Translations under genes and position numbers: made by a program
In this document: positions 10,343 to 58,504 of the stretch, piece by piece
Layout of the letters: each line of letters opens with the position of its first letter
How positions within the stretch are numbered: position 1 is the stretch's first letter
Assembly (NCBI RefSeq): GCF_907163125.1
Contig: NZ_OU015319.1
Coordinates: forward strand, 2,790,001-2,854,000
DNA: 64,000 bases
Reading direction: 5' to 3'
From: Cloacibacterium caeni
GTDB lineage: Bacteria; Bacteroidota; Bacteroidia; Flavobacteriales; Weeksellaceae
The notes under the pieces: generated by a model
What the model was told of the DNA's origin: nothing
The model's database searches: none
Seen by the model: the letters and a program-made list of their open reading frames with translations, nothing else

Positions 10343-13042
10343 TTAATCTACCAAATTTGGAGATAGCCATTTTCTCGCCAATTCTAAATCTATATTTTTT
10401 CTTTCGGCGTAATCTTTCAGTTGGTCTTCTGTAATTTTTCCTACTCCGAAATATTTCGCTTTAGGATTAGCAAAATAATATCCAGAAACAGAAGCTGTAG
10501 GGAACATTGCCAAACTTTCTGTCAATTCTAATCCTATGTTTTTCTTCACTTTCAATACTTCCCAAATCGTGGTTTTTTCTAAATGGTCTGGACAAGCAGG
10601 ATAACCAGGAGCAGGACGAATTCCTACATATTTTTCGGAAATTAAATCTTCATTTTCTAGATGTTCATCACTAGAATAACCCCAAATTTCAGTTCTTACT
10701 TTTTTGTGTAAATATTCTGCAAAAGCTTCTGCCAATCGGTCTGCTAATGCTTTTACCATAATCGCATTGTAATCATCATGCTCTGCTTCATATTTTTGAG
10801 CCAATTCATCGGTTCCAAAACCCGTAGTCACCGCAAAAGCACCGATGTAGTCTTGTTTCCCTGATGTTTTTGGAGCGATAAAATCACTCAAAGCCAAATA
10901 TTCTTTGCCATCAGATTTTTTATGTTGTTGACGAAGCGTTCTGAACGTAAATGTTTCCTCACCATTTTTCAGTTCAATATCGTCTTGCTCATTAGAATTG
11001 GCAGGGAAAATTCCGAAAATTGCTTTTGCAGTTAATAATTTTTCCGCCACGATTTTCTTCAACATTTTTTGAGCATCAGCAAAAAGTTCTTTTGCGTGTT
11101 CTCCTACAATTTCGTCTTCTAAAATCTGAGGATACTTTCCAAATAAATCCCAACTTCTGAAAAACGGACTCCAATCGATGTAAGGATGCAGTTCTTCTAA
11201 ATTTTGATTTTCAATCAATTGAATGCCTAAATTTTTAGGTTCAGAGATGGTCTCGATTTCCCAATTGATTTTGAATTTTTGATTTCTCGCTTCTTCTATC
11301 GAAATATATTCTTTATCAACTTGTCTGTTCAAAAATTTCTTACGGAAATCGGCATAATCAGTTTTCAATTCCGAAACAAATTCTGCATTTCTATTGCTCA
11401 ATAAAGAACTTACCACACCAACTGCTCTGGAAGCGTCATTTACATGAACCACAGCATTTTTATATTTAGGGTCTATTTTTACCGCAGTATGCGCTTTAGA
11501 AGTTGTAGCACCGCCAATCATCAACGGAAAGTTCAGGTTTTGACGCTCCAGTTCATTGGCAATATGTACCATTTCGTCTAAACTTGGCGTAATCAAACCG
11601 CTTAAACCAATAACGTCTACTTTTTCTTCAATCGCTGTTTGAATAATTTTTTCGGCAGGAACCATCACTCCTAAATCTACAATTTCGTAATTGTTACAGC
11701 CCAAAACTACGCTCACAATATTTTTTCCAATGTCGTGAACATCACCTTTTACCGTTGCCATCAATACTTTTCCGTTGGCTTTTTGAGCAGAATCTTTCTC
11801 AGCTTCTATAAATGGTTGAAGATAAGCCACCGCTTTTTTCATCACTCTCGCAGATTTTACCACTTGAGGAAGAAACATTTTTCCGCTTCCGAATAAATCT
11901 CCCACTACAGACATTCCCGTCATTAGATTTCCTTCGATAACATCCAAAGGTTTTGCCGAAATTATTCGGGCTTCTTCTACATCTTCCTCAATAAAACGGT
12001 CAATTCCTTTTACCAAAGAATGGGTAATTCTGTCTTGCAAAGGCTGATTTCGCCATGCTAAATCTTCTACTTTTTCTTTTTTTACGGATTTATGTTTTTC
12101 AGAATAATCCAATAATCTTTCCGTAGCATCATCTCTTCTGTCCAGCATTACATCTTCTACCAGCTCCAACAAATCTTTAGGAATCTCGTCGTAAATTTCT
12201 AGCATTGCAGGGTTTACAATTCCCATATTCATTCCCACTTTGATGGCGTGATAGAGGAAAACCGAGTGCATTGCTTCTCTTACCGTATCATTTCCTCTAA
12301 ACGAAAACGAAACGTTAGAAACACCACCCGAAACCGAAACATATGGCAAGTTTTCACGAACCCATTTTGTTGCTTCAATGAAATCCAATGCGTTTCTGCG
12401 ATGTTCTTCCATTCCAGTTGCCACTGGAAAAATATTGAGGTCGAAAATAATATCTTCCGCAGGAAAACGGACTGTGTCCGTCAACAGTTTATAACTTCTT
12501 TTACAGATTTCTATTCTGCGTTCGTAATTATCGGCTTGTCCATTTTCATCAAAAGCCATTACAACTACTGCGGCACCATATCTTTTGATGGCTTTGGCTT
12601 GACGAATAAATTCTTCTTCACCACCTTTTAAACTGATGGAATTTACTACACATTTCCCTTGAACCACTTGCAAACCAGCTTCTAAAATTTCCCATTTTGA
12701 AGAATCTATCATCATTGGAATTCTGGAAATATCAGGTTCTGAGGCGATTAAATTCAAGAATTTAACCATGCAATATTTTCCGTCTAAAAGTCCATCATCA
12801 AAACAAATGTCTAAAATCTGTGCGCCTCCTTCTAATTGATGACGAGCAATATCTAGAGCTTCAGAAAATTTTTCTTCTTTAATCAATCTGAGAAATTTCT
12901 TAGAACCTGCTACATTGGTTCTTTCTCCAATATTGATAAAATTGGATTCTGGAGTTATAATTAAAGGTTCTAGACCAGATAATTTTAGTTGTCGGTTGTT
13001 GGTTGTTGGTTGTCGGAATTTTTGGATCGGATTAGTTTCCAT
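10343..13042 (-). CDS. metH: Methionine synthase MetH, pterin/B12/activation half
   Basis: The C-terminal three domains of cobalamin-dependent methionine synthase, 899 residues. Order: pterin-binding methyl-THF domain (LSGLEPL at the start, [14 protein letters not shown]), cobalamin-binding domain with the DxHxxG motif in [13 protein letters not shown], and the AdoMet reactivation domain ending with [12 protein letters not shown]. The homocysteine domain is encoded separately by the upstream gene, as in many Flavobacteriia. The first 20 residues are odd. Residues QPTTNNRQ are encoded by an intergenic heptamer repeat, and the ATG overlaps the stop of the four-helix-bundle gene by 11 bases, so initiation is probably coupled to that gene. 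True MetH homology begins at about residue 20 (LKLSGLEPL). Confidence 0.95.
12988..13016. repeat. Heptamer array GTTGTYG x4 (left arm)
   Basis: Four consecutive 7-base units, GTTGTCG, GTTGTTG, GTTGTTG, GTTGTCG, followed by G. The first 22 bases face an inverted partner at 13419-13440 with 19 of 22 matches and a perfect 11-base core (GTTGTCGGTTG / CAACCGACAAC). The four-helix-bundle gene lies between the two arms. This arm is translated as part of the N-terminus of the MetH C-terminal half. Confidence 0.8.
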
Positions 13043-13403
13043 TCTGTAGACTTTTAAAATAGTTAATAAATCCGTTTAATAATTTTTTACAAGCAAGTAT
13101 TTGATTTAAAAAAGTTTCTAAATCTATTTCATTGATATATTTTTGATCAAACGCTAAATAAATTTGAGTTTCTAATTCATAAAGCGAACCTCTTGAAATA
13201 TGCAAAAATTGAATGGTATCTTGTGCTGTTCTTCTTCCTAATCCTTCTGCAATATTAGAAGGAATTGAAATTGAACATCTTCTTATTTGGTTTGTAAGTC
13301 CATAAATTTCTTCTTTTGGAAAATTTTTAGTTTTTTCATAAATCATATTGACCAATTTTCTGGCTTCAATCCAAACTTCTAGTTCTGTGTATTCTTTTTT
13401 CAT
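13032..13403 (-). CDS. Four-helix-bundle protein (S23/IVP family)
   Basis: A 123-residue protein of the four-helix-bundle family first known from 23S rRNA intervening sequences. Diagnostic are [19 protein letters not shown] at the start, [22 protein letters not shown] in the middle and [15 protein letters not shown] further on. I chose ATG 13403 (MKKEYTELE). An upstream extension in the same frame reads through the repeat and the end of metH-N and is not part of the family. The gene sits between the two metH halves, framed by inverted heptamer arrays, and looks like an inserted cassette. Its stop overlaps the start of metH-C. The biological role of free-standing members is not established. 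Confidence 0.9.
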
Positions 13404-13418
13404 CAATATTTTTTTAAA

Positions 13419-13447
13419 CCGATAACCATCAACCGACAACTGACAAC
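13419..13447. repeat. Heptamer array NNAYAAC x4 (right arm)
   Basis: After one leading C, four 7-base units (CGATAAC, CATCAAC, CGACAAC, TGACAAC) form the inverted partner of the array at 12988-13016. On the minus strand this arm encodes the last residues of the homocysteine methyltransferase (LSVVG) and its stop codon. The same family occurs again at 47016-47043. Confidence 0.8.
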
Positions 13448-14439
13448 TTTCTTGGTTGATAATTTTTAACAATATTTGCGATTGCAGCAATGTGGTCAGG
13501 AGTTGTTCCGCAACAACCACCCACGATATTTACCAATCCTTTTTCTGCATATTCACGGATTTGTTCTGCCATAAATTCTGGAGATTCATCATATTGCCCA
13601 AAAGCATTCGGTAAACCAGCATTTGGATAAGCAGAAATGTAAAATTCAGAATTATTAGAAATGGTTTCTAAATAAGGCGTCAATTGTTTCGCTCCTAGAG
13701 CACAGTTAAATCCTACACTCAATAAGTTAAGATGAGATATTGAAACCAAAAATGCTTCAGCAGTTTGTCCGCTCAAAGTTCTTCCTGAAGCGTCAGTAAT
13801 GGTTCCAGAAACCATAATTGGAATCTGAATTTTTCTTTCTTCCTGAATTTGGTCTATGGCAAAAAGTGCAGCTTTAGCATTTAAAGTGTCAAAAATAGTT
13901 TCTACTAAAAGAATATCAGAACCGCCATCTAAAAGTGCTTCTGCTTGTTGTTTGTAAGCAATTCTTAACTCATCAAAAGTAATGGCTCTATAACCAGGAT
14001 CATTTACATCCGGAGAAAGAGATGCGGTTTTATTAGTAGGGCCAATAGAACCTGCTACAAATCTTGGTTTTTCTGGAGTTATAGCTGTGAATTCATCACA
14101 AACTTTTCTTGCAATTTTTGCAGATTCAAAATTGAGTTCGTACACCAAATCTTCCATATGGTAATCTGCCATTGCAATGGTAGTCGCAGAAAAAGTATTG
14201 GTTTCGATGATGTCTGCACCAGCTTCTAAATATTTTTTGTGTACTTCTTCTATAGCATGAGGCTGAGTAAGAGAAAGTAAATCATTATTTCCCTTCAATG
14301 GAGATTCCCAGTTTTTAAATCTCTCGCCACGATAGTCTTCTTCTGTAAACTGATATCGCTGAAGCATAGTTCCCATAGCTCCGTCTAGAACAAGGATTCT
14401 TTGCTGTAAATTTTGATAAAGTATGTCGCTATTTTGCAT
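13429..14439 (-). CDS. metH: Methionine synthase MetH, homocysteine-binding half
   Basis: The N-terminal homocysteine S-methyltransferase domain of MetH as a separate 336-residue protein. It has [21 protein letters not shown] at the N-terminus, the zinc ligand region GFNCALGA (first cysteine) and [11 protein letters not shown] (second and third cysteines) near the C-terminus. It must act together with the pterin/cobalamin half encoded two genes downstream. The last five residues (LSVVG) and the stop codon come from the heptamer repeat that begins here, in place of the linker that joins the two domains in full-length MetH. It is the first gene after the SAM-I riboswitch. Confidence 0.95.
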
Positions 14440-14500
14440 TTCAATGTGATTAAAAAATGAAATGCTATAAGAAAAGTTGAGGGAATCAACTGTTTTTATG

Positions 14501-14609
14501 TGTTATCTATCCCAAAAATGAGTAGAATGTAGCACCTTTTCTCGTTTTAGAAACGCGATAGGTTGCCAAGGTTTCACAGAGTCTAATCTCTCCACCTTTC
14601 TTGATAACA
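14501..14609 (-). promoter_or_regulatory. SAM-I riboswitch (S box)
   Basis: On the minus strand the leader upstream of metH has the S-box consensus: TATCAAGAAAGGTGGAG, then TGAAACCTTGGCAACC, and later AAAGGTGCTACATTC. The closing helix P1 is a perfect 7-base pairing between 14603-14609 and 14501-14507. High S-adenosylmethionine should switch the downstream methionine operon off. Between the aptamer and the metH start, at 14475-14492, a short hairpin (AGTTGA / TCAACT) followed by T residues may be the terminator part of the expression platform. Confidence 0.93.
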
Positions 14610-14753
14610 TTTCGATTATATGAAAGAACAAATCTTTTGCAAAGCTATATCATTTTTTTCACAATAAGAAATTGTCATTGAAAAAATTAATCTAAATGAA
14701 ATTTCATAGTTTTTATTTTTTTCTAACTTCGCATCATGTTATTTTAAAAAATA

Positions 14754-17372
14754 ATGGTTATGAATGCTGAAAAACAACGATTACAAGATATAAATTACAG
14801 AACTTGGGGACCTTATGTAAGCAATAGACAGTGGGGAAACGTAAGAGAAGATTATTCCTTTGATGGAAATACTTGGGGAGCAACTGGTCATGATGATGCA
14901 GAAAGCAGAACTTACAGATGGGCAGAAGAAGGAATCGCGGGAATTTCTGATGACAAACAACGTTTGTGCTTCGCTTTTTCTTTTTGGAATAAAAAGGATA
15001 AAATGGTTAAAGAACGTTTCTTTGGATTGAGCAACCATCAAGGAAATCATGGCGAAGACATTAAAGAAATTTTCTATTATTTAGACAATACGCCTACTCA
15101 TTCTTACATGAAAATGGTGTACAAATATCCGCAGAATGCCTTTCCTTACGAAGATTTAATCAAGACAAATGCAGAACGAAGCAATAAGGAAACAGAATAT
15201 GAAATTATAGATACGGGAATTTTTGACCAAAATGAATATTTCGATATTTTTATAGAATATGCCAAAATTCACCATGATGATATTTTAATCAGAGTTACTG
15301 TCACCAACCGAAATATAGAAAAAGCACCTTTGGTGATTCTCCCCACACTTTGGTACAGAAATAATTGGAGTTGGGGTTATAATTCTTATAAACCTAATTT
15401 TACAACGCGCCATCGTGGACAGATAGAAATAGAACATGAGAGTTTGGGAATGAAAAAGCTTTATTCTCGGGACAAATCCGTGAAAATTCTTTTCTGTGAA
15501 AATGAAACCAATACCGAAAAATTATTCGGGAAAAAATCTGAAAATAAATACTTTAAAGATGGAATTAACCATCATATCGTTCATCAAAAAAACACGGTGA
15601 ATCCTAAAAAATTCGGGACTAAAGCTGCTTTTGTAATAGATACAGAATTAGAAGGAGGAGAAACTAAAACTTTTGACTTCAGAATGTCTCCTCATAAAAT
15701 GGAGAACGCTTTTTTTGATTTTGATGAGGTTTTTGAAGTAAGAAAAAAAGAATCGGATGAATTTTATGACGAAATTCAAAAAGAATTTAACTGCGAAGAT
15801 GAAAAAAATGTGCAGCGACAAGCTTTTGCAGGATTGCTTTGGAACAAACAATTTTATCATTATAAAGTTGGAAAATGGTTAAATGGCGACCCAAATTTCC
15901 CTGTGGAAAGGAATTTTGAACATCATGTAAGAAATGTAGAATGGAAACACATGAATTGCAAAGACATTATTTCTATGCCAGATAAATGGGAATATCCGTG
16001 GTTTGCAACGTGGGATTTAGCCTTTCACTGTGTGAGTTTTAGTATTTTAGACCCAGATTTTGCCAAAAATCAATTGCAATTATTGACCAAAGAATGGTAC
16101 ATGCATCCTAACGGTCAGCTTCCAGCGTATGAATGGGATTTTTCAGATGTCAATCCGCCAGTTCACGCATGGAGCACTTTTAGAGTTTTTAAAATCGATG
16201 AAAAAATCAATGGAAAACCAGATATTCATTTCTTAGAAAGTGTTTTTCAGAAATTATTGCTCAATTTTACGTGGTGGGTAAACCGAAAAGATAAAAACGG
16301 AAAGAATGTTTTCGGAGGTGGATTTCTTGGATTGGATAACATTGGTGCTTTTGACAGAAATATGCAGTTCAAAAATGGAGAATATCTAGAACAAGCTGAT
16401 GGAACTTCTTGGATGGCGATGTTTGCCCTGAATATGATGAGAATTTCTATGGAATTGGCATTGTATAATCCAGTTTATGAAGATATGGCGATTAAATTTT
16501 TCGAGCATTATCTCTACATTGCAGAAGCTATGGGAAATCTTGGCGAAGGAAAAAATGGACTTTGGAACGAAGAAGACGGATTTTTCTATGACGTATTGCA
16601 ACTTAGCGACGGAACTGGAATTTCTCTAAAATTAAGAAGTATTGTAGGCCTCATTCCAATGTTTGCGGTAGAAGTAATAGAACACGAAATGCTTCAAAAA
16701 CTGCCTAATTTTACCGAAAGAATGGACTGGATTCTAAAAAATAAACCTGAACTTGCCAAATTGGTTTCGCATTGGGATGTAGAAGGAAAAGGAAGAAAAC
16801 ATCTCATGAGTATTTTGAGAAAAACGAGATTGACCAAAATTCTGAATAGAATGTTAGACGAAAAAGAATTTTTAAGTGAATTTGGAATTCGTTCGATGTC
16901 AAAAGTATATGAAAAAAATCCGTTTCAATTAGAAATTAATGGCATCAATCACGTTGTGCATTATACGCCTGCCGAAAGTGATAGTCGAATGTTTGGCGGA
17001 AACAGCAATTGGAGAGGCCCGATTTGGTTCCCGATTAATTTTTTAATCGTAGAAAGTCTTCAGCGATTTTATTTTTATTACGACGAAAGTTTGAAAGTAG
17101 AGCTTCCTACGGGAAGTGGGAATTATCAGAATCTAAATTATGTGGCAGATCATTTGAGTCAAAGATTGTGCAATATTTTCTTGCCAGACAAAGACGGAAA
17201 TCGTGCTTTTAATGGAAACGTAGATAAATTAAACCATGACGAACATTTCAAAAATTACGTGATGTTCTACGAATATTTTCATGGAGATAATGGTCGTGGA
17301 GTAGGAGCTTCTCACCAAACTGGTTGGACTTCTACCGTTGCCAAATTAATACACCCTAAATTGAAAAATTAG
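14754..17372 (+). CDS. GH63-like glucosidase (MGH1-type)
   Basis: A cytoplasmic 872-residue protein related to the GH63 / mannosyl-oligosaccharide glucosidase clan, with an (alpha/alpha)6-barrel. Marks are TWGPYVSNRQWGNVREDYS at the N-terminus, KWEYPWFATWDLAFHCVSF, QLPAYEWDFSDVNPP, FLGLDNIGAFDR with an acidic residue, and the C-terminal NSNWRGPIWFPINFL and HQTGWTSTVAKLI. The family hydrolyses alpha-glucosidic bonds; the bacterial substrate of this subgroup is not known from sequence. No signal peptide is present. ATG 14754 is used; ATG 14760 (MNAEK) is equally likely. It stands alone, divergent from the methionine operon. Confidence 0.85.
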   Translation: MVMNAEKQRLQDINYRTWGPYVSNRQWGNVREDYSFDGNTWGATGHDDAESRTYRWAEEGIAGISDDKQRLCFAFSFWNKKDKMVKERFFGLSNHQGNHGEDIKEIFYYLDNTPTHSYMKMVYKYPQNAFPYEDLIKTNAERSNKETEYEIIDTGIFDQNEYFDIFIEYAKIHHDDILIRVTVTNRNIEKAPLVILPTLWYRNNWSWGYNSYKPNFTTRHRGQIEIEHESLGMKKLYSRDKSVKILFCENETNTEKLFGKKSENKYFKDGINHHIVHQKNTVNPKKFGTKAAFVIDTELEGGETKTFDFRMSPHKMENAFFDFDEVFEVRKKESDEFYDEIQKEFNCEDEKNVQRQAFAGLLWNKQFYHYKVGKWLNGDPNFPVERNFEHHVRNVEWKHMNCKDIISMPDKWEYPWFATWDLAFHCVSFSILDPDFAKNQLQLLTKEWYMHPNGQLPAYEWDFSDVNPPVHAWSTFRVFKIDEKINGKPDIHFLESVFQKLLLNFTWWVNRKDKNGKNVFGGGFLGLDNIGAFDRNMQFKNGEYLEQADGTSWMAMFALNMMRISMELALYNPVYEDMAIKFFEHYLYIAEAMGNLGEGKNGLWNEEDGFFYDVLQLSDGTGISLKLRSIVGLIPMFAVEVIEHEMLQKLPNFTERMDWILKNKPELAKLVSHWDVEGKGRKHLMSILRKTRLTKILNRMLDEKEFLSEFGIRSMSKVYEKNPFQLEINGINHVVHYTPAESDSRMFGGNSNWRGPIWFPINFLIVESLQRFYFYYDESLKVELPTGSGNYQNLNYVADHLSQRLCNIFLPDKDGNRAFNGNVDKLNHDEHFKNYVMFYEYFHGDNGRGVGASHQTGWTSTVAKLIHPKLKN

Positions 17373-17419
17373 ATTTTTTTGATTTTCTTCCTATAAGATT
17401 GAAGTAAAAAAGTCAAAAA

Positions 17420-18679: not shown

Positions 18680-18707
18680 GGTGGTTTAGTTTTTTAGTTT
18701 TATTTCC

Positions 18708-31538: not shown

Positions 31539-31566
31539 GATTTGGGATTTGGGATTTTAGATTTAC
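31539..31566. repeat. Heptamer array GATTTNN x4
   Basis: Four 7-base units in a row, GATTTGG, GATTTGG, GATTTTA, GATTTAC, directly upstream of the flippase start on the other strand. Only a weak inverted partner (AAATCTAAAA at about 31659) is seen before pyrC. Confidence 0.65.
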
Positions 31567-31623
31567 GAATTTTTCATAAACCTTAGAATTGAACTTTTAC
31601 ACTTTCACAAAAACCTAAATTTC

Positions 31624-44198: not shown

Positions 44199-44301
44199 GC
44201 TGTCTGCTTTCTGCAATCAGCTGAAAAGAGCTCATAATCAAAAAAATATTGTATTAAAAAATTTAAAAAATGCTGAAAGCAGATTGCCGAAAGCTGAAAG
44301 C
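44199..44301. repeat. Inverted heptamer arrays upstream of paaA
   Basis: Left arm 44199-44226 consists of 7-base units GCTGTCT, GCTTTCT, GCAATCA, GCTGAAA. Right arm 44272-44301 consists of GCTGAAA, GCAGATT, GCCGAAA, GCTGAAA, GC. A 24-base stretch of the left arm (44199-44222) matches the complement of 44278-44301 at 20 positions. The right arm ends 6 bases before the paaA start codon. Confidence 0.75.
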
Positions 44302-47015: not shown

Positions 47016-47043
47016 TGACAACCATCAACTAACAACAGACAAC
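47016..47043. repeat. Heptamer array NNNCAAC x4 before paaB
   Basis: Four 7-base units TGACAAC, CATCAAC, TAACAAC, AGACAAC end 8 bases before the paaB ATG. It is the same family as the arms at 13419-13447 and 12988-13016. Here it is one arm only, and it forms the end of the small membrane protein frame. Confidence 0.75.
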
Positions 47044-47051
47044 CAAAATAT

Positions 47052-47336: not shown

Positions 47337-47408
47337 TTGGTAATTAGACTTTTGGTAATTAGTATTTGGTACTAATTACCAACTACCAAAATACCAACTA
47401 CCAAAAGT
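47337..47408. repeat. Heptad-periodic repeat hairpin between paaB and paaC
   Basis: Directly after paaB, GGTAATTAGTA (47354-47364) pairs perfectly with TACTAATTACC (47370-47380). Around it, units such as TTGGTAA, TACCAAC and TACCAAA recur with a period of 7 (one 8). The array reaches to a few bases before the paaC ATG. Confidence 0.7.
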
Positions 47409-48617: not shown

Positions 48618-48728
48618 CGTAAAATTGTAGAACTGTAAAGTTGCAAAATCGCAGAACCAAAAAAAATCACATAAAAACATTAGATTTGTAAAAACGACTT
48701 TACGATTTTACAAATTAACAATTCTAAA
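48618..48728. repeat. Octamer arrays between paaD and paaG
   Basis: From the paaD stop, five 8-base units run CGTAAAAT, TGTAGAAC, TGTAAAGT, TGCAAAAT, CGCAGAAC (48618-48657). A second set with complementary character, ACTTTACG, ATTTTACA, AATTAACA, ATTCTAAA, lies at 48697-48728 and ends just before the paaG ATG. The two sets form imperfect inverted arms. Confidence 0.65.
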
Positions 48729-49534: not shown

Positions 49535-49587
49535 GATGTGATGATGTGTTGATTTGCAGATTATCACATCGTCACATCATCACATCA
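49535..49587. repeat. Octamer hairpin between paaG and paaH
   Basis: Left arm units GATGTGAT, GATGTGTT, GATTTGCA, GATTATCA (from 49535) meet right arm units TCACATCG, TCACATCA, TCACATCA (49564-49587). GATGTGATGATGTG (49535-49548) pairs with 49565-49578 at 13 of 14 positions. The right arm ends 7 bases before the paaH ATG. Confidence 0.75.
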
Positions 49588-49594
49588 TCATATT

Positions 49595-50743
49595 ATGAAG
49601 AAAGTAGGAATCATCGGCTCAGGAACTATGGGAATTGGCATTGCGCAAGTAGCAGCTACTGCACATTGCGAGGTTTTTTTATACGATGCCAACTTCTCAC
49701 AAACCGAAAAATCTCTAAAAAATTTAAAAATCACATTAAATAAATTAGCGGAAAAAGGGAAAATTTCTACTGAAAAATCCTTAGAAATTTTCAATCAAAT
49801 TAAGCCTTGTCAAGAAATCAAAGAATTGAAAGATTGTGATTTGGTCATAGAAGCCATCATCGAAAATAAAGAAATCAAGCAAAAAGTTTTCGCCGAGTTA
49901 GAAACTTATGTTTCGGAAAAATGTGTTTTGGGTTCTAATACTTCGTCTATTTCCATTACTTCGCTTCAGTCAGAACTTAAAAATCCTGAACGTTTTATCG
50001 GAATTCATTTTTTCAATCCAGCGCCATTAATGCCTTTGGTTGAAGTGATTCCAGGATTGTTGACTGAAAATAATTTAGCTCAAGAAATGTTGGATTTAAT
50101 GAAATCTTGGGGCAAATCTCCTATCATCGCTAAAGATGTTCCCGGTTTTATTGTTAACCGAATTGCAAGACCTTTTTATGGTGAAGCTTTGAAAATCGTA
50201 GAAGAAAATTTAGCAACTCCAGAACAAGTGGATGACGCGATGAAATCTCTTGGAAATTTTAAAATGGGACCATTTGAATTGATGGATTTAATCGGAATTG
50301 ATGTTAATTTTTCGGTAACGAAAACGGTTTATCAGGATTATTTCTACGACCCAAAATACAAACCATCACTTCTTCAGCAAAGAATGAGCGAAGCCAAATT
50401 ACTTGGTAGAAAAACAGGAAAAGGCTTTTATGATTATTCTGAACAGAATCAAGAATCAAGAGTCAAGAATCAAGAAATTGTAAAAGATGAAAGTCTGTAT
50501 GAAATGATTTTCATGAGAATTATTTCTATGTTGATTAATGAAGCGGTAGAAGCAAAAAGATTAGGAATTGCCAATGATGAAGACATAGAAACTGCGATGC
50601 AAAAAGGTGTAAATTATCCGAAAGGATTATTGAATTGGGGAAAAGAAATTGGCTATCAAAAGATTTCAGAAACCTTACAAAATTTATACGAGGAATATCA
50701 GGAAGAGCGATACAGACAAAGTCCACTTTTAAAAAAACTATAA
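49595..50743 (+). CDS. paaH: 3-hydroxyacyl-CoA dehydrogenase PaaH
   Basis: NAD-dependent oxidation of 3-hydroxyadipyl-CoA to 3-oxoadipyl-CoA. 382 residues: Rossmann motif VGIIGSGTMGIGIAQVA, IEAIIE, SNTSSISIT, GIHFFNPAPLMPLVEV (catalytic histidine), FIVNRIARPFYGEAL and DLIGIDVN in the C-terminal helical domain. Between YDYSEQ and IVKDES (about 284-294) the sequence QESRVKNQE is encoded by four 7-base repeat units, an in-frame insertion in a linker. The rest looks intact, so the enzyme is probably functional. Confidence 0.94.
   Translation: MKKVGIIGSGTMGIGIAQVAATAHCEVFLYDANFSQTEKSLKNLKITLNKLAEKGKISTEKSLEIFNQIKPCQEIKELKDCDLVIEAIIENKEIKQKVFAELETYVSEKCVLGSNTSSISITSLQSELKNPERFIGIHFFNPAPLMPLVEVIPGLLTENNLAQEMLDLMKSWGKSPIIAKDVPGFIVNRIARPFYGEALKIVEENLATPEQVDDAMKSLGNFKMGPFELMDLIGIDVNFSVTKTVYQDYFYDPKYKPSLLQQRMSEAKLLGRKTGKGFYDYSEQNQESRVKNQEIVKDESLYEMIFMRIISMLINEAVEAKRLGIANDEDIETAMQKGVNYPKGLLNWGKEIGYQKISETLQNLYEEYQEERYRQSPLLKKL
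50447..50474. repeat. Heptamer array AATCAAG x4 inside paaH
   Basis: Units AATCAAG, AATCAAG, AGTCAAG, AATCAAG lie within the coding sequence and encode part of QESRVKNQE. The array alone is 28 bases, so the reading frame is kept only together with further inserted or lost bases. Confidence 0.75.
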
Positions 50744-50746
50744 ATT

Positions 50747-50950: not shown

Positions 50951-50955
50951 AAGTT

Positions 50956-51195
50956 ATGAAAAAAATAATAATCACAACGTTAGTTCAATCTATCTTATTT
51001 GTATTAATTAACACTACTTTAGGATATTTTTTTAATAAAATGCAAATGTCTTTTTACGAATATGTGTTTTCACAAAAAACAAAAATGACTGTAACGTTTT
51101 TATTATGGTTTGTAATATTCTTTTTTGTAAATAAAATTTCAAAAAATGGAGAAATCACATGGAAAGATATTTTTAAAAGAAAAAATGAACTTTAA
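50956..51195 (+). CDS. Small membrane protein in paa cluster (second)
   Basis: A 79-residue protein with two hydrophobic helices (IIITTLVQSILFVLINTTLGYFF and MTVTFLLWFVIFFFV) and a charged C-terminus (KDIFKRKNEL). Layout and some residues match the preceding gene, which ends 5 bases upstream, so they may be a tandem duplication. The function is unknown and no link to phenylacetate is visible beyond position. Confidence 0.65.
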   Translation: MKKIIITTLVQSILFVLINTTLGYFFNKMQMSFYEYVFSQKTKMTVTFLLWFVIFFFVNKISKNGEITWKDIFKRKNEL

Positions 51196-51212
51196 ACATT
51201 GAATTTATTAGA

Positions 51213-51626: not shown

Positions 51627-51640
51627 TTTCGAAATCAGAT

Positions 51641-52849: not shown

Positions 52850-53042
52850 AAGTTTTTTTAAAAAACTGACATTGAATTGGAGGCGTTAAAAAATTTTGAA
52901 ATTGATTTGTTAATAAATTCCTGTTGTTTGAGCGAAGCGAGTTTCAGGGATTTTAGAATTAATGAAAAATTTTAGCCGAGAATTCACAGTCTTGAACTTT
53001 TGGTTCTTTTGTTTCAAGACAAAAGAACATAAATAAAAATAT
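52850..53042. repeat. Intergenic repeats between paaJ and paaY
   Basis: About 190 bases with no gene. Two recurrent-looking strings are present: GAGCGAAGCGAGTTTCAGGG (from about 52929) and CTTGAACTTTTGGTTC with TTCAAGACAAAAGAAC (52993-53028). Both are of kinds I recognise as dispersed intergenic repeats in Flavobacteriia, from memory. No terminator is obvious, so transcription may continue into paaY. Confidence 0.4.
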
Positions 53043-53633
53043 ATGGCAAATATTTATTCATACCACGGCATAAAACCCATCATCAAAAAATCAGCATACA
53101 TCCATCCTCAAGCGGTAATTATAGGAAATGTAGAAATTGGGGAAGAAGTATACATCGGTCCTAATGCAGTTTTGCGTGGAGATTGGGGAAAAATCATCAT
53201 CAAAGACGGCGCAAACGTTCAAGAAAACTGTACGCTTCACGTTTTTCCGGGAATTCCGACTATTTTAGAAGAATCGGCGCATATTGGTCACGGCGCGATT
53301 ATTCATTCGGCGCACATTGGCAAAAATTGTTTGGTTGGGATGAATGCCGTCGTAATGGACAATGCCAAAATTGGAGACGAATGTATTATTGGTGCGTTGA
53401 GTTTTGTTCCCACTGGTTTTATTTCGGAAAATAGAAAATTGATAGTTGGCAGTCCTGCGAAAATTATTCGCGAAGTTTCAGACGAAATGATTGCTTGGAA
53501 AACCAAAGGAACCGCTATTTATCAAGAACTGGCTCGTGAAGGAAAAACCGCCATTCAACCATGCGAACCATACATAGAATTTGTAGAACAAACGCCCACC
53601 AAAATTGTAGATTACTCCGTTTGGACGAAGTAA
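53043..53633 (+). CDS. paaY: PaaY, gamma-carbonic anhydrase-like thioesterase
   Basis: A left-handed beta-helix protein of 196 residues. Hexapeptide repeats run from VIIGNVEIGEEVYIGPNAVL to NAKIGDECIIGA. Zinc histidines are in NCTLHVFPG, SAHIGHGAIIHSAHIG. The C-terminal helix includes SPAKIIREVSDEMIAWKTKG. PaaY hydrolyses a CoA thioester side product and so protects the pathway. General gamma-carbonic anhydrases are close relatives, but the position between paaJ and paaZ supports PaaY. Confidence 0.9.
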   Translation: MANIYSYHGIKPIIKKSAYIHPQAVIIGNVEIGEEVYIGPNAVLRGDWGKIIIKDGANVQENCTLHVFPGIPTILEESAHIGHGAIIHSAHIGKNCLVGMNAVVMDNAKIGDECIIGALSFVPTGFISENRKLIVGSPAKIIREVSDEMIAWKTKGTAIYQELAREGKTAIQPCEPYIEFVEQTPTKIVDYSVWTK

Positions 53634-53634
53634 T

Positions 53635-53710
53635 GGCGCCAAATTTCCGCCTTCCGTTCCCGCTTTTTTATTTTAAAAAAATAAAAAGAGCTCCACTCAA
53701 GTCGGGGCGC
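53635..53710. repeat. Intergenic repeat element with T-hairpin-A core (second copy)
   Basis: Directly after the paaY stop: GGCGCC, then CCGCCTTCCGTTCCCGC, then TTTTTTATTTT (53664-53674) facing AAAAAAATAAAAA, then GAGCTCCACTCAAGTCGGGGCGC. The order of parts is that of the element at 9881-10011 with other bases. Confidence 0.5.
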
Positions 53711-53784
53711 AATTTCGTTACAATTTCACCATTTTTCCAAAATTTAAAATTTGAGTATCTTAACCACGAAAAATAAATTCAATA

Positions 53785-53840
53785 GAAACGGGCTTTAGCC
53801 CGTTTTTAAAAAAATAAAAAAGCAATTGGCTTTAGCCAAA
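53785..53840. repeat. Two GGCTTTAGCC-type mini-hairpins
   Basis: AACGGGCT-TT-AGCCCGTT, followed by T residues, could act as a terminator. A second hairpin, TTGGCT-TT-AGCCAA, follows about 40 bases later, just before the next ATG. Both share the core GGCTTTAGCC, a repeat type common in this group of bacteria as far as I recall. Confidence 0.5.
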
Positions 53841-53847
53841 ATTTATA

Positions 53848-54129
53848 ATGAAATTTTCAAAAAAAATATTTTTTGTAATTCTTGGAGTGATTTTTCTAAT
53901 TGCACTAAATATTTTTGGGTTTTATCTAAATCAAGAAGGTTTGAGAATTTCAGATTCATTAGAACACGCGCAATCAAAACAACAAGAACAATTTATTAAA
54001 AATCAGGAATTTCCATTTTCAGAAATCATAATTTATTTAGTTTTTATTTTTGATTTGGCAATTATTCTATTTTTACTTTTTATGATATTAAAATTTATTT
54101 TCAAGAAACTCAAAACATCTAAAATCTAA
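53848..54129 (+). CDS. Small membrane protein upstream of paaZ
   Basis: A 93-residue protein with two hydrophobic helices (IFFVILGVIFLIALNIFGFYL at 5-26 and IIIYLVFIFDLAIILFLLFMIL at 60-82) separated by a polar loop rich in glutamine and serine. The C-terminus is basic (KFIFKKLKTSKI). No family is recognised. It is the fourth small membrane protein gene within the paa cluster and ends 14 bases before paaZ. Confidence 0.65.
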   Translation: MKFSKKIFFVILGVIFLIALNIFGFYLNQEGLRISDSLEHAQSKQQEQFIKNQEFPFSEIIIYLVFIFDLAIILFLLFMILKFIFKKLKTSKI

Positions 54130-54143
54130 CATCCTCACATAAA

Positions 54144-56636
54144 ATGAAACTAAAAAACTACATATCAGGACAATGGATTGAAGGAAACGGCCACGAAATT
54201 CCGCTTTACAATGCTGTAAACGGAGAACTGGTTGCCATTTCAGATACTTCGGGACTAGATTTTGAAGAAGCATTGCATTTTGGTAGAACCATAGGTTATA
54301 AAAACTTGTCTTCTATGACTTTTTACGACCGTGGAGAAATGCTTAAAAAAATTGCATTGTATCTTTTAGAAAGAAAGAAAAAATATTATGAACTTTCTTA
54401 CAAAACAGGTGCCACTCATATTGATTCTTGGGTAGATATAGAAGGCGGTTTTGGTACTTTTTTCACCTATTCAGGTTTGGCGAAAAGAATGCTTCCCAAT
54501 ACACCATTTTGGGTAGATGGAGAAACTCAGAAAATTTCTGCCAACGGAACGCATCTCGGAACGCATATTTTGACACCAAGTGAAGGCGTTTCTGTGCAAA
54601 TCAATGCGTATAATTTTCCAGTTTGGGGAATGTTAGAAAAATTGTCAACATCGCTTTTGGCAGGAGTTCCAGCCGTTGTAAAACCTTCGCCGTACAGTTC
54701 TTATCTTACGAATGAAGTTTTCAAAGACATGATAGAAAGCGGTTATCTTCCTGAAGGTGCAGTTCAATTGGTTTGTGGCGAACCAGGCAATATTTTAGAT
54801 TTTGTAAAAGATGGAGATTCTGTAGTGTTTACAGGCTCCGCAAATACTGGTAGAAAACTGAAAGCGCTTCCATCAATTTCGGGAAATGCAGTTCGTTTCA
54901 ATATGGAAGCCGATTCTTTGAACTGTTCTATTCTTGGGTTAGATGCCAAACCGGGAACTCCAGAATTTGATTTGTTCATCAAAGAAGTTAAAAATGAAAT
55001 GACTACAAAAGCAGGACAAAAATGTACGGCAATCCGTAGAATTATTGTTCCTGAAAATTTAGTTGGTGATGTTCAAAATGCGTTATCAAAAGCTCTTGAC
55101 CAAACAAAAATTGGAAATCCATTAAGCAGAGAAACCAAAATGGGCTCTATTGTTGGAAAAGAACAAATGCAGATTTTAGAAGAAAAAGTAAATCTCTTAA
55201 AAGCAGAAACAGAACTCATCTACGATGGAAAGCATGATTTGGTAGATGCAAATTACGAAAACGGAGCTTTCTTTACTCCGAAAGTTTTTTATAATGATAA
55301 ACCTTTTGAAAAAAATATATCTCACGAACTCGAAGCTTTTGGCCCAGTTTCTACGATTATGCCATACAAAGATGCAGAAGAAGCTGCAGCTTTAGCAAAA
55401 CGAGGAAAAGGAAGTTTAGTAGGTTCTATTGTTTCTCATGATGAGAAATTTGTGGCAGAAACTTCTTGGAAAATGGCGAGTTCTCATGGTAGAATTTTTG
55501 TTTTGAATAGAGATAATGCCAAAGAAAGTACAGGTCACGGTTCTCCGTTGCCAACTTTAATGCATGGTGGTCCTGGTAGAGCTGGAGGTGGCGAAGAAAT
55601 GGGAGGTTTAAATGGACTTCACTTTTTCCTTCAAAAAACTGCGATTCAGGGTTCGCCAGATGTTTTGACAGCGATTACTAAAGTTTATACACAAGGTGCA
55701 GAAAAGAAATTCAGTGATAAACATCCTTTCCAAAAATATTTTGAAGAAGTGGAAGTTGGAGATTCTCTAGAAACCGCAGGAAGAACTTTTACAGAGGCAG
55801 ATATTGTCAATTTTTCTAATGTTTCTTGGGATCATTTTTATGCACATACAGATGCAACCAGCTTAAATGGAACTATTTTTGACAAAACCGTTGCACACGG
55901 ATATTTTATCCTTTCTGCAGCGGCTGGTTTATTTGTTTCAGGGAAAAAAGGGCCAGTTATTGCGAATTATGGACTGGAAAATGCAAGTTTTTTTAAACCA
56001 GTTTATGCTGGAGATACCATTACCGTTTATTTGACGGCGAAAGAAAAAATCAACAGAGGTGTAAAAGGTAGAAATATTCCAAGTGGAGTAGTAAAATGGT
56101 TGGTTGAGGTAGTGAATCAAAGAGAAGAAGTGGTTTGTGTAGCTACCATTTTGACTTTGGTGGCAAAAAAATCTCCTTTCATTGAACTAAATAGAAGAAA
56201 TATTCAAAAATTATTGAATGGTTTAACTGAAAATACGAAGCCGAATTGGGGTAAAATGACTGCTCAGCAAATGTTGGAACATCTAGAAACAACTATACTG
56301 TATAGCATGGGTGAACCAGAAGCTGAGAAATGCTTCACACCAGAAGAGCATTTAGAAAAGTATCAAGATTCTCTATACAATCACCGAAAAATGCCAAAAG
56401 ATTTTCCTGCGCCGTTCCTTCCAGAAGATGGAACTTTACCAGTGTTGAAGTATAAAAATCTGGAGCAAGCCAAAGAGAAATTTTTAGAAAATCTTCAGAA
56501 ATATCAGATTTATTATAGAGAAAATCCAGAAGCGGAGCATATGCATTTTGTCTTTGGAAAGCTCAATAAAGAAATGATGGAGTTGATGCACAGAAAACAT
56601 TTTACGCATCATTTTGAACAATTTAATCTAATTTAA
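54144..56636 (+). CDS. paaZ: PaaZ with extra C-terminal DinB-like domain
   Basis: Bifunctional ring-opening enzyme: the MaoC domain hydrolyses oxepin-CoA and the aldehyde dehydrogenase oxidizes the resulting semialdehyde. N-terminal ALDH (1-520) with E255 (NMEADSLN) and C294 (AGQKCTAIRR). The MaoC-type hydratase (about 530-675) has D563 and H568 (WDHFYAHTD); E. coli PaaZ uses D561 and H566. At 830 residues it is about 150 longer than E. coli PaaZ. The extra part (about 680-830) has NWGKMTAQQMLEHLETTILY and the ending LMHRKHFTHHFEQFNLI, resembling DUF1569/DinB-superfamily proteins. The role of this third domain is not known to me. Confidence 0.93.
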   Translation: MKLKNYISGQWIEGNGHEIPLYNAVNGELVAISDTSGLDFEEALHFGRTIGYKNLSSMTFYDRGEMLKKIALYLLERKKKYYELSYKTGATHIDSWVDIEGGFGTFFTYSGLAKRMLPNTPFWVDGETQKISANGTHLGTHILTPSEGVSVQINAYNFPVWGMLEKLSTSLLAGVPAVVKPSPYSSYLTNEVFKDMIESGYLPEGAVQLVCGEPGNILDFVKDGDSVVFTGSANTGRKLKALPSISGNAVRFNMEADSLNCSILGLDAKPGTPEFDLFIKEVKNEMTTKAGQKCTAIRRIIVPENLVGDVQNALSKALDQTKIGNPLSRETKMGSIVGKEQMQILEEKVNLLKAETELIYDGKHDLVDANYENGAFFTPKVFYNDKPFEKNISHELEAFGPVSTIMPYKDAEEAAALAKRGKGSLVGSIVSHDEKFVAETSWKMASSHGRIFVLNRDNAKESTGHGSPLPTLMHGGPGRAGGGEEMGGLNGLHFFLQKTAIQGSPDVLTAITKVYTQGAEKKFSDKHPFQKYFEEVEVGDSLETAGRTFTEADIVNFSNVSWDHFYAHTDATSLNGTIFDKTVAHGYFILSAAAGLFVSGKKGPVIANYGLENASFFKPVYAGDTITVYLTAKEKINRGVKGRNIPSGVVKWLVEVVNQREEVVCVATILTLVAKKSPFIELNRRNIQKLLNGLTENTKPNWGKMTAQQMLEHLETTILYSMGEPEAEKCFTPEEHLEKYQDSLYNHRKMPKDFPAPFLPEDGTLPVLKYKNLEQAKEKFLENLQKYQIYYRENPEAEHMHFVFGKLNKEMMELMHRKHFTHHFEQFNLI

Positions 56637-56646
56637 AAAACTAGTT

Positions 56647-57411
56647 ATGCTACCATTTGTAATATCAGAAATTAAAAATAATATTTCCGAAATCACTTTC
56701 GGGACGCCAAAAAGCAACTCATTACCCGGCGAAATTTTAGAAAAATTAGCACAAACCATTTTAGACGAAGCGGCTAAAGAAGAAGTAAAAGCCATTTTAC
56801 TAAAATCTGAGGGCGAAAAAGCGTTTTGTGCAGGAGCAAGTTTTGATGAGTTGTTAGAAATCAACGATTTAGAAATATCAAAAACTTTCTTTGGGGGTTT
56901 TGCTAAAGTGCTCAACGCCATGAGAACTTGCAGAAAAATTGTAGTGGTAAGAGTTCAGGGAAAAACGACTGGAGGTGGAGTAGGAATTGCTTGTGCTGCA
57001 GATTATTGTTTTGCGACAGAGAATGCAAGTTTGGCACTCACCGAAATTAATTTAGGAATTGGGCCATTTGTGATTGGACCTTATGTTGAAAGAAAAATAG
57101 GTAAATCACAATTTACTGCGATGGCAATAGATGCCGATTTCCGTACCGCAAATTGGGCAGAACAGCATAATATTTACCATTCGGTTTCTCCAACGATTGC
57201 AGAAATGGATTCAGAAATAACACGATTTTTAGAAAAATTGGCGAGTAGAAGTTCAGATGCTTTAGCTTTAATCAAAAAAGTTTCTTGGGAAGGAACAGAG
57301 CACTTTACAGAGCTTTCCCCAGAAAGAATTCACATGAGCGCAAGTCTTATTCTAGAAGATACAGCCAAGAAAAATATTGAAAAAATTAAAGAAAATCTGA
57401 GAAATAAATAA
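56647..57411 (+). CDS. Enoyl-CoA hydratase, probable PaaF role
   Basis: A 254-residue crotonase-family protein. The oxyanion-hole stretch is SEGEKAFCAGASFDELLE and the second is VRVQGKTTGGGVGIACAADYC. Catalytic glutamate positions of hydratases appear in ALTEINLGIGPFVIGP (E in LTEINLG), though the usual second acid is less clear. As the last gene of the paa cluster it is the candidate for 2,3-dehydroadipyl-CoA hydratase (PaaF), which is otherwise missing. Sequence similarity alone would also allow a methylglutaconyl-CoA hydratase, so no symbol is given. Confidence 0.8.
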   Translation: MLPFVISEIKNNISEITFGTPKSNSLPGEILEKLAQTILDEAAKEEVKAILLKSEGEKAFCAGASFDELLEINDLEISKTFFGGFAKVLNAMRTCRKIVVVRVQGKTTGGGVGIACAADYCFATENASLALTEINLGIGPFVIGPYVERKIGKSQFTAMAIDADFRTANWAEQHNIYHSVSPTIAEMDSEITRFLEKLASRSSDALALIKKVSWEGTEHFTELSPERIHMSASLILEDTAKKNIEKIKENLRNK

Positions 57412-57415
57412 GAAA

Positions 57416-57442
57416 GAAACTGCAAATTAATTTTGCAGTTTC
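57416..57442 (+). terminator. Probable terminator of the paa cluster
   Basis: GAAACTGCAAA (57416-57426) pairs perfectly with TTTGCAGTTTC (57432-57442). The T run after it is poor (AAAATAAA), so it is a hairpin of strong stem but uncertain terminator strength. Confidence 0.6.
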
Positions 57443-57455
57443 AAAATAAATATTA

Positions 57456-57472
57456 ACTTTGTATTTCAAAGT
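57456..57472. promoter_or_regulatory. Palindromic operator ACTTTG-N5-CAAAGT (first)
   Basis: A perfect 6-base inverted repeat with 5-base spacer that overlaps the -7 box TAACTTTG (57454-57461, form TAnnTTTG), 9 bases before an ATG. The same element occurs at 58533-58549. It is the likely operator of the winged-helix regulator encoded between the two. Confidence 0.75.
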
Positions 57473-57481
57473 GCTTTATTT

Positions 57482-58099
57482 ATGGAAAATAAAAACTACC
57501 AAGAAGACTTGCAGCACATCAGAAAAATGATGGAAAAAAGCTCTCGATTTATTTCTTTGAGCGGAATTTCAGGCGTTTTTGCAGGATTATTTGCTTTAGC
57601 TGGTGCTATTTATGTTTATTTCTTTTTCAAAAAAAATGGTGTAGATTATTTCGAGGGAACGGTAAAATACTATGAAAAAGATATCATTACTCATTTGGTT
57701 ATTGTGGCGATGATTATTATGGTTTTAGCGATTTCTTCTGGAGCATATTTTACCATAAAAAAAAGCAAAGCCCATCATCTTCAAATTTGGGATGCTACCA
57801 CCAAAAAATTATTGTATAATTTTGCCATTCCATTGGGAATTGGAGGTTTATTTTGCGCAGGATTATTGTATCACGGTTTACATGGTTTACTTTCTCCTGC
57901 CACTTTAATTTTCTATGGATTAGCGCTATTTAATGCTGGAAATTACACTTTTTCTGACATTAAATATTTAGGATTGTGCGAAATGGCATTAGGAATTGTA
58001 TCACTGTTTTTTTTAGGGTATGGTTTATTTTTCTGGGCAATTGGTTTTGGAGTTTTGCATATTGTTTATGGTTTGATAATGCATAAGAAGTATAAATAA
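57482..58099 (+). CDS. Membrane protein of the wHTH-regulated locus
   Basis: A 205-residue inner-membrane protein with about five to six hydrophobic helices (SLSGISGVFAGLFALAGAIYVYF, LVIVAMIIMVLAISSGAYF, and others). The N-terminus is charged (NYQEDLQHIRKMMEKSS), a pattern common in Bacteroidota proteins encoded beside small winged-helix regulators. No enzymatic motif. The gene starts 9 bases after the operator, so it is probably the first target of repression. The function is unknown. Confidence 0.8.
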   Translation: MENKNYQEDLQHIRKMMEKSSRFISLSGISGVFAGLFALAGAIYVYFFFKKNGVDYFEGTVKYYEKDIITHLVIVAMIIMVLAISSGAYFTIKKSKAHHLQIWDATTKKLLYNFAIPLGIGGLFCAGLLYHGLHGLLSPATLIFYGLALFNAGNYTFSDIKYLGLCEMALGIVSLFFLGYGLFFWAIGFGVLHIVYGLIMHKKYK

Positions 58100-58133
58100 A
58101 ATCAGAAATAAATTAGTAAAAGAATTGAATTAA

Positions 58134-58424
58134 ATGTTAAAGATTCATCAACTCAACAAAGAATTTGAAAGCCGTGTCAGATTGGGTATAATGTCCGTTC
58201 TGATGGTTAACGATTGGGTTGATTTTAATGAAATGAAGCAACTTTTAGAAGTAACAGACGGAAATTTAGCAAGTCACAGTTCTGCATTAGAAAAATCTAA
58301 TTACATAGAAATCAAGAAGGAATTTGTAGGCAAAAAACCAAAAACATCTTACCGTGTTACACAAGCAGGAAGAAAAGCTTTCGAAGAACATCTGTCAGCT
58401 TTAGAAAAATTATTAGGAAAGTAA
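58134..58424 (+). CDS. Small winged-helix transcriptional regulator
   Basis: A 96-residue DNA-binding protein of the HTH_34/MarR-like group: LNKEFESRVRLGIMSVLMVNDWVDFNEMKQ, then VTDGNLASHSSALEKSNYIEIKKEFVGKKPKTSYRVT with the recognition helix and the beta-hairpin wing. Such proteins are dimeric repressors of neighbouring membrane-protein genes in Bacteroidota. The two palindromes ACTTTG-N5-CAAAGT flanking this gene are the likely binding sites. The inducing signal is unknown. Confidence 0.9.
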   Translation: MLKIHQLNKEFESRVRLGIMSVLMVNDWVDFNEMKQLLEVTDGNLASHSSALEKSNYIEIKKEFVGKKPKTSYRVTQAGRKAFEEHLSALEKLLGK

Positions 58425-58431
58425 TTTTTTA

Positions 58432-58504
58432 AATTGAAAATTGAAAGTGGAGAATTGAAAATTTAAAACAATCAACTGACAACAATTAGTCAAAAATCAA
58501 AAAG
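58432..58504. repeat. Heptamer arrays AATTGAA and NNNCAAC
   Basis: From just after the regulator stop codon, units AATTGAA, AATTGAA, AGTGGAG, AATTGAA, AATTTAA occupy 58432-58466. They are followed by AATCAAC and TGACAAC (58470-58483), of the CAAC family seen at 13419 and 47016, and by looser units to 58504. Confidence 0.65.

Follow-up and report, generated by a model that had tools for sequence, protein, structure and literature searches.

A four-helix-bundle gene enclosed by heptad arrays

Within the 64,000-nucleotide stretch of the Cloacibacterium caeni genome that was analysed (contig NZ_OU015319.1, positions 2,790,001 to 2,854,000 of the forward strand; hereafter 'the window'), the genes metH1 (homocysteine S-methyltransferase domain) and metH2 (pterin, B12 and activation domains) are separated by a small element, composed of a gene for a four-helix-bundle protein and two short tandem arrays of degenerate seven-base units that enclose it. 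The gene (13032-13403, minus strand) forms the cargo of the element, and matches the profiles PF05635 (23S_rRNA_IVP; 129 bits, relative to a cut-off of 33.8) and TIGR02436 (123 bits). The arrays are mutually inverted: the 5' arm (13417-13447) carries heptads of the GTTGTCAGTTGTCGG type on the minus strand and overlaps the last bases of metH1, and the 3' arm (12988-13016) carries heptads of the CCGACAAC type on the same strand, with a score for the inverted flanks of z 9.7. An initial annotation of this DNA, which had listed both arrays among a series of period-7 and period-8 repeats, overlooked that the two enclose such a gene; its arrays were recovered close to the positions that it had given, as checked with Tandem Repeats Finder and by direct examination of the window sequence, and contain approximately 3 to 5.5 units each.

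The closest PDB relatives of the window protein by sequence are 2gsc (E 3e-33; the best hit, named XCC0516) and 2rld (E 6e-21), both with five chains per entry; the prefix XCC presumably denotes Xanthomonas campestris. The 3' arm covers the 5' end of metH2 (12970-13042), the frame of which begins within the terminal part of the four-helix-bundle gene and continues through the arm; an S-adenosylmethionine (SAM) riboswitch on the minus strand at 14500-14610, upstream of metH1, heads the operon in which the element resides.

Thirteen PF05635 copies are found in the C. caeni genome, and 3 to 9 in each of six other Cloacibacterium genomes (designated G001 to G006). In five of those relatives (G001, G003, G004, G005 and G006) the orthologous metH junction is a gene-less spacer of 80-81 nucleotides, hairpin-like by eye, in which an octad (eight-base) array was detected in four of the five cases; in G002 it is a spacer of 51 nucleotides with no array. 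The metH junctions (12940 and 13370) were unmapped at the first comparison, and these results derive from a separate, redone mapping.

Association of PF05635 genes with short-period arrays

The flanks of PF05635 genes were examined for arrays of period 6-10 on either or both sides, and for inverted similarity between the two flanks (z above 3 relative to shuffles). Across the genus, in which the best 30 of 49 PF05635 matches were analysed, an array was present on either side at 28 of 30 loci, on both sides at 19, and inverted flanks at 26; among 85 called genes of 80-180 amino acids from the C. caeni genome, which did not include the one known PF05635 gene of the stretches from which they were drawn, the corresponding counts were 16, 4 and 5 (Fisher 3e-13 for a flanking array and 8e-17 for inverted flanks). 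When each insertion site was counted once, the genus values were 15, 9 and 12 of 16. Loci drawn from the entire phylum Bacteroidota, which again were best matches rather than random samples, gave an array at 22 of 29, arrays on both sides at 6, and inverted flanks at 18, or 14, 4 and 9 of 20 once per site; these weaker figures reflect orthologous loci that were first counted apart and subsequently once per site. The family is present in 116 of 148 sampled Bacteroidota genomes.

The association extends to a second phylum. A search of plasmid proteins returned 30 records (24 cyanobacterial, 4 from Riemerella, and 1 each from Azospirillum and Gemmatirosa), from which 14 hand-picked copies, 13 cyanobacterial and one from Riemerella, were analysed. 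Arrays were found at 13 of the 14, on both sides at 8, and with inverted flanks at 9; among the cyanobacterial copies 12 of 13 adjoin an array, the exception being L284. Among 30 control genes taken from three stretches of cyanobacterial plasmids, the same three measures gave 3, 0 and 0. The guess of the initial annotation that a four-helix-bundle gene might co-occur with the arrays is therefore borne out across genus, phylum and plasmids. A further Nostoc copy, met in passing, displays octad arms with a z of 19.8. On three cyanobacterial plasmids (L285, L293 and L294) the gene lies between CRISPR (clustered regularly interspaced short palindromic repeat) genes, twice between cas6 and cas4 and once between cas10 and a gene of the Cmr3 family, and it is adjoined there by heptad or octad arrays.

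The abundance of the gene and of the arrays was also compared, using three 20-kb stretches from each of 19 Bacteroidota genomes and 20 such stretches from C. caeni. Ten genomes with at least five gene copies contained 41 arrays of period 7 or 8 (14 in nine of them when C. caeni was left out), versus 4 in ten genomes with two copies or fewer; copy number and array number were correlated (Spearman 0.57, p 0.009) in a comparison that was uncorrected for base composition and relatedness.

Period, orientation and polarity of the arms

Across 59 Bacteroidota loci, the arrays that flank the gene have a period of 7 in 49 cases, of 8 in 17, and of another length in 3. The gene is co-directional with its upstream neighbour at 53 of the 54 loci at which that neighbour could be resolved, and with both neighbours at 46 of 59. 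The two arms further display a consistent polarity, in which the 5' arm is G-rich and C-poor and the 3' arm C-rich and G-poor. With one arm pair counted per site, this polarity holds in 28 cases versus 3 among 32 Bacteroidota pairs, and in 12 versus 0 among 13 plasmid pairs (from 15 copies); the gene-less hairpins at three junctions of the paa operon, counted once per sequence cluster, behave likewise (15 versus 2, 11 versus 4, and 13 versus 0). Arrays across the C. caeni genome are similarly G-richer than C-rich near a stop codon (13 of 16) and C-richer than G-rich near a start codon (9 of 12). As a result of this polarity, each arm is written mainly in three letters, and pairs with its partner arm but hardly with itself.

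Certain insertion sites recur. At eight of the 59 loci, from genomes of two families (f1 and f35), the gene directly downstream is thiolase-like, as counted by eye; an automatic pattern gave 3. Four others, also by eye, precede a gene starting MINLxNTHI, three a nuoD-like gene and two an lpd-like gene, and since each of these three groups falls within one family, shared descent is possible for them.

Excess and placement of arrays in the Cloacibacterium genome

The genome comprises 2.98 Mb in a single contig, of which the window and 20 stretches of 20 kb distributed across it (400 kb) were sampled; genes were called by a simple script, and 308 intergenic intervals were compared with shuffles that preserved dinucleotides. 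The fraction of matching bases peaks at a lag of 7 (z = 8.1), followed by a lag of 8 (z = 6.9), such that the periodicity which the initial annotation proposed to seek by autocorrelation is present in the sampled intergenic DNA; lags of 6, 9, 10 and 11 (4.8 to 6.0) and of 15 (5.3) are also raised, and periods 7 and 8 thus form a peak and are not exclusive. Arrays with a score of at least 14 numbered 17 at period 7 (0.1 in shuffled sequence) and 7 at period 8 (0.2 shuffled). Such arrays were found at 25 of 199 co-directional, 2 of 54 divergent and 2 of 40 convergent junctions. The resulting bias is modest per junction (25 of 199 versus 4 of 94; Fisher p 0.03); expressed per base, co-directional junctions account for 25 of the 29 array-bearing ones within 44% of the intergenic sequence (p 4e-6).

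Turnover and decay at operon junctions

Comparison of the window with four relatives (G002, G003, G005 and G006), in which aligned blocks are 90-97% identical to C. caeni, demonstrated that array sequences are mostly either near-identical or unalignable. The gap between paaB and paaC is filled in C. caeni by a period-7 hairpin (47337-47404, plus strand; detected array 47377-47404), and the five genomes contain three unrelated period-7 alleles at that point, one shared by C. caeni and G006, one by G003 and G005, and one restricted to G002. Between paaD and an enoyl-CoA hydratase gene, a hairpin with period-8 arms (5' arm 48619-48656 and 3' arm 48694-48721, both plus strand) has one octad sequence in C. 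caeni, G002, G003 and G005, and is replaced in G006 by a different pair of octad arrays. The following junction, between the hydratase gene and a 3-hydroxyacyl-CoA dehydrogenase gene, contains a period-8 hairpin of GATGTGAT and ATCACATC units (49535-49596, plus strand) that is also found in G003, G005 and G006; in G002 a heptad array stands in its place, and in other Weeksellaceae a PF05635 gene is found there. A fourth, gene-less hairpin of period 7 is composed of a 5' arm of the GCTGTCT type (44199-44221, plus strand), which falls under the array score cut-off of 14, and a 3' arm of the GCTGAAA type (44272-44301, plus strand); its entire spacer differs in G002.

All four of the array junctions that were mapped in all four relatives (44188, 47334, 48618 and 49531) have an identity of no more than 0.62 with at least one of them, and 12 of 22 other junctions mapped to the same extent hold at least 0.87 in all. 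Many junctions were unmapped in some relatives, and an apparent fall at 17373 is an artefact of zero-length mapping. The comparison of presence and absence at orthologous junctions that had been proposed for these arrays thus reveals that they are absent or wholly replaced in some close species.

Two of these junctions were examined further in sets of 80 Weeksellaceae genomes each, after removal of duplicates, with spacers clustered at a 70% identity cut upon which the cluster counts depend. The paaB-paaC spacers formed 25 clusters, of which the changes on a quick protein tree numbered 47 (minimum 24, shuffled mean 60.0); an array of period 7 or 8 was present in 44 genomes and the spacer folds back in 54. 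At the dehydrogenase junction the spacers formed 24 clusters and changed 45 times on the tree (shuffled 55.6), with an array in 57 genomes and fold-back in 66. Shuffled spacers yielded 0.3 and 1.0 arrays at the two junctions (82 and 81 loci, duplicates included). The paaB-paaC spacer of Kaistella pullorum (L083) contains a very long heptad array (spacer of 252 nucleotides, score 99), a possible recent expansion.

The spacer that precedes the 3-hydroxyacyl-CoA dehydrogenase gene is longer than 300 nucleotides at 21 loci, many of which have octad arms at both ends, and the open reading frames within the loop matched PF05635 in 4 of 4 that were scanned (81-87 bits). Fifteen of these long spacers contain a frame of at least 100 amino acids and 6 contain shorter ones (24-94 amino acids). 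The divergence among the 15 longer copies at codon positions 1, 2 and 3 is 0.126, 0.069 and 0.386, a signature of purifying selection on the four-helix-bundle gene. At two loci of this junction (L087 and L099) the arms are retained and most of the inside is deleted, such that broken and deleted copies alike keep their arms.

Interpretation of the arrays

On balance, the arrays probably represent the arms of small fold-back elements of one family, or single arms left behind by them; in its complete form such an element would carry a PF05635/TIGR02436 gene. This four-helix-bundle gene would be enclosed by two arms, the 3' arm inverted relative to the 5' arm, with about 3 to 6 degenerate units of 7 or 8 bases in each. 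The element would be placed mostly at operon junctions, its gene in the sense of the upstream gene, and would closely adjoin a stop codon at one end and a start codon at the other. The elements are probably selfish, in the manner of the intervening sequences (IVS) of 23S rRNA, and transcribed with the host operon; the host would tolerate them since the hairpin is either cut or ignored at the RNA level, and the gene-less hairpins and single arms would be their decay products. A constant period with freely varying letters would require something that measures spacing, and the four-helix-bundle protein is a candidate for that reader because its gene recurs beside the arrays, and since its relatives are five-chained and the arms contain about as many units. 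It may be that the protein contacts the repeated units, thereby fixing the period while the letters drift.

A number of observations weigh against this explanation. No flanking array was present at 2 of the 30 loci from the genus and at 7 of the 29 from the phylum, inverted flanks occur at only 9 of 20 phylum sites, and in two plasmid copies (L285 and L287) the arrays of the two sides lie in direct rather than inverted orientation. The correlation between gene copies and arrays is modest once C. caeni is left out (rho 0.50, p 0.03, with relatedness uncorrected), and individual genomes depart from it: G157 has 13 copies and no array in its sample, and G061 has one array and no copy. An inverted partner was found for only 7 of 35 sampled arrays of the C. 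caeni genome (1 of 35 when paired with a random other junction), which indicates that two-armed hairpins are usual at gene-bearing elements and at the paa junctions and that single arms dominate elsewhere in the genome; fold-back was about equally frequent at co-directional junctions with arrays and at the others (7 of 24 versus 30 of 131), and the 27 arrays per 400 kb extrapolate to approximately 200 genome-wide, versus 13 PF05635 genes. Four of the 22 array-less junctions mapped in all relatives (19886, 37037, 37893 and 57412) also fall to 0.62 or below, partly through insertions, so that turnover is typical of array junctions and is not confined to them. No insertion event with its target site was caught in the compared genomes. 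The association between period and gene tree is weak (4 changes versus 5.8; 11 of 300 shuffles), and so is covariation in the stems: among nine within-junction clusters, one yielded no consensus pairs and the remainder scored close to shuffles or slightly higher. Finally, A-C mismatches on the sense strand exceed G-T mismatches (169 versus 128); this speaks against a sense RNA stem under selection, and leaves selection at the RNA level through G-U wobble unsupported.

Three other explanations were weighed. The arrays might be selected signals in the 5' or 3' untranslated regions of host genes, with roles in RNA processing, translation or attenuation, and the four-helix-bundle gene a parasite or domesticated partner between them. 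The positional polarity of single arrays in the C. caeni genome and the presence of arrays in 44 and 57 of 80 Weeksellaceae genomes at the two paa junctions are consistent with such signals, as is the translational role that MacGregor proposed for TAACTGA repeats near start codons (PMC4679880); wholesale replacement between species with flanking blocks that are 90-97% identical, the absence of an array at a given site in some species, and the weak covariation render the idea unlikely. A shade less likely again is ordinary slippage, in which over-represented bacterial heptamers grow by slipped-strand copying wherever DNA can vary. Heptamers are in excess in many bacterial genomes (PMC4692102), Cyanothece strains differ by indels of 7 nucleotides (PMC4679880), and unit-for-unit changes between G003 and G005 (by eye) and the very long Kaistella array resemble such a process; it nevertheless fails to predict inverted arms, G/C polarity, a co-directional bias, or one gene family flanked in two phyla. 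The presence of arrays at 28 of 30 PF05635 loci versus 16 of 85 controls makes slippage alone unlikely, and as a full account it is rejected on the strength of the inverted arms, the polarity and the gene association; it may still lengthen and homogenise arrays that have another origin.

A further possibility, that these are repetitive extragenic palindromic (REP) sequences served by REP-associated tyrosine transposases (RAYT), or miniature inverted-repeat transposable elements (MITE), moved by a transposase, is the least probable of the three, and is regarded as very unlikely. The inverted repeats, the dispersed families, Y1_Tnp matches in 6 of 7 Cloacibacterium genomes and inverted flanks at 17 of 25 Y1_Tnp loci would suit it, yet the flanks of those genes contain arrays of period 6-10 at only 2 of 25 loci and otherwise appear by eye as plain REP-like palindromes, arrays and four PF05635 genes occur in G002, which has no Y1_Tnp match, and no fixed terminal sequence was seen. 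A REP/RAYT carrier is rejected on the ground that Y1_Tnp flanks seldom hold such arrays; by the same count, the REP-type transposase that the initial annotation had offered as an alternative companion gene does not share these arms, and its opinion that a constant period with changing units is not that of an ordinary REP or MITE family is supported. The Y1 transposase loci (L330-L359 and L003:17554-18006), and those of PF13366 described below, were best matches, from which five and two, respectively, were skipped as cut or short.

Two additional candidates were set aside. The PF13366 family (PDDEXK_3, GxxExxY), considered as an alternative cargo of heptad arms, is accompanied by a period 6-10 array at only 8 of 28 loci, six of which have a period of 9 or 10. 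Its genes (L013:2649-3056; L300-L329) have inverted flanks at 13 of 28 loci, with CACAGATT-like units by eye, and look like a possible parallel family of armed elements. Copying driven by a reverse transcriptase was also considered: a match to RVT_1 was found in one of seven Cloacibacterium genomes, that of C. caeni itself (at 1.08 Mb, the window lying at 2.79-2.85 Mb), and in none of the six relatives, and an RVT_1-family enzyme is thus seemingly not needed.

A more speculative extension of the armed-element explanation, which is doubtful when all of its parts are taken jointly, would make elements of this kind the one selfish class behind the heptanucleotide repeats of cyanobacteria and Bacteroidota, and perhaps those of Xanthomonas and Beggiatoaceae, with a five-subunit protein ring that reads one unit per subunit and that also drives hairpin replacement. 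Each of the five subunits would take one unit of 7 or 8 bases along one arm, somewhat as TRAP wraps RNA round a protein ring; what selection preserved in each arm would then be its spacing and its three-letter alphabet rather than its sequence, and the same complex would drive the swapping of one junction hairpin for another.

Relation to known systems

The heptanucleotide repeats of cyanobacteria, or short tandemly repeated repetitive (STRR) sequences, are degenerate tandem heptanucleotides dispersed through intergenic DNA, and were reportedly described by Mazel (1990) and by Holland and Wolk (1990); the present arrays, compared with that description only, are likewise degenerate, intergenic and dispersed. 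To our knowledge, reports of heptanucleotide repeats, which go back to about 1990, name neither a carrier nor a cause, and S23/four-helix-bundle proteins, which are annotated in many genomes, have no function known outside rRNA. The association reported here gives each a testable partner, suggests operon junctions as a new habitat for IVS-like elements, and would explain how the spacers between conserved operon genes of sister species can change completely while their form persists.

Among published accounts, one describes a 428-nucleotide IVS in 23S rRNA that contains an S23p gene and inverted repeats, is excised by RNase III, and is regarded as selfish (PMC4990558). The elements described here share with it the PF05635 family, a similar length, and a gene within a fold-back stem, but lie between protein genes, in many copies, with stems built from polar units of 7 or 8 bases. 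The copy in the window is bordered by the two metH genes and not located in a 23S rRNA helix, and a protein gene was resolved on at least one side of 56 of 59 loci, so that these elements are termed IVS-like, and not IVS.

Heptamers of the GGGGAYT/GGGAATC type are described in Nostoc and Xanthomonas, in an account the available part of which does not mention the four-helix-bundle gene family (PMC4692102), and satellites derived from heptamers are described elsewhere (PMC6749651). TAACTGA heptads in Beggiatoaceae, cyanobacteria and five Bacteroidetes, for which a binding protein was suspected, resemble the present arrays in their position near start codons, in indels of 7 nucleotides, and in their absence from orthologous gaps of relatives, and assemblages of other heptamers in Elizabethkingia recall the varied units found here; they differ in consisting of one unit sequence, and the main text of that paper does not contain the terms four helix, 23S or S23 (PMC4679880). 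No paper that joins names of the PF05635 family with heptamer repeats was found among 5.39 million open-access papers, subscription papers being outside the scope of the search; of the four that were retrieved, none contained both. The Avd proteins of diversity-generating retroelements belong to a related four-helix-bundle family (PF22296 and NF033474; E 1e-5 and 2.7e-6), with scores for the window protein that miss both cut-offs (27.6 bits versus 80 for NF033474, and 26.4 versus 40 for PF22296); no RVT_1 gene is adjacent to the window element, and template and variable repeats were not searched for.

Other repeats and features of the window

The remaining arrays of the window vary in form. 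A heptad array immediately upstream of paaB (47017-47046, plus strand) resembles the metH element in unit type by eye; its junction (46990) was unmapped in the relatives. An AATCAAG array (50445-50476, plus strand) lies within the 3-hydroxyacyl-CoA dehydrogenase gene, the frame of which is kept; it is absent in G002 and G006 and longer in G005, in which (L054) a second array, of another unit type, replaces adjacent coding sequence of the same gene. A lone GATTTNN array at a divergent junction (31539-31571, no strand assigned), without an inverted partner, is present in all four mapped relatives, in which it has drifted and has not been replaced (array detected in 3 of 4). The earlier description of arrays that sit at gene junctions thus applies to most of them, the exception being the array within the dehydrogenase gene; the notion that they fill the space between stop and start codons is qualified by the two metH arms, which overlap the 5' end of the metH2 frame and the end of metH1, and by the one-armed array at the divergent junction. 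That each locus has a unit of its own is partly right, and units of the AATCAAG, CATCCAA and CTTCCGA types recur between loci by eye.

An AATTGAA array (58431-58468, plus strand) follows an HTH_34 gene and is absent in G002; at the junction of G003 that is orthologous to 58425-58556 (L051), a REP-like palindrome is found where C. caeni has this array, which indicates that the same gaps are used by different repeat families. Two Flavo-1 RNAs (RF01705) are present on the minus strand, at 9927-10015 and 53639-53713, within a genome-wide total of 31 matches, 23 of them above the cut-off.

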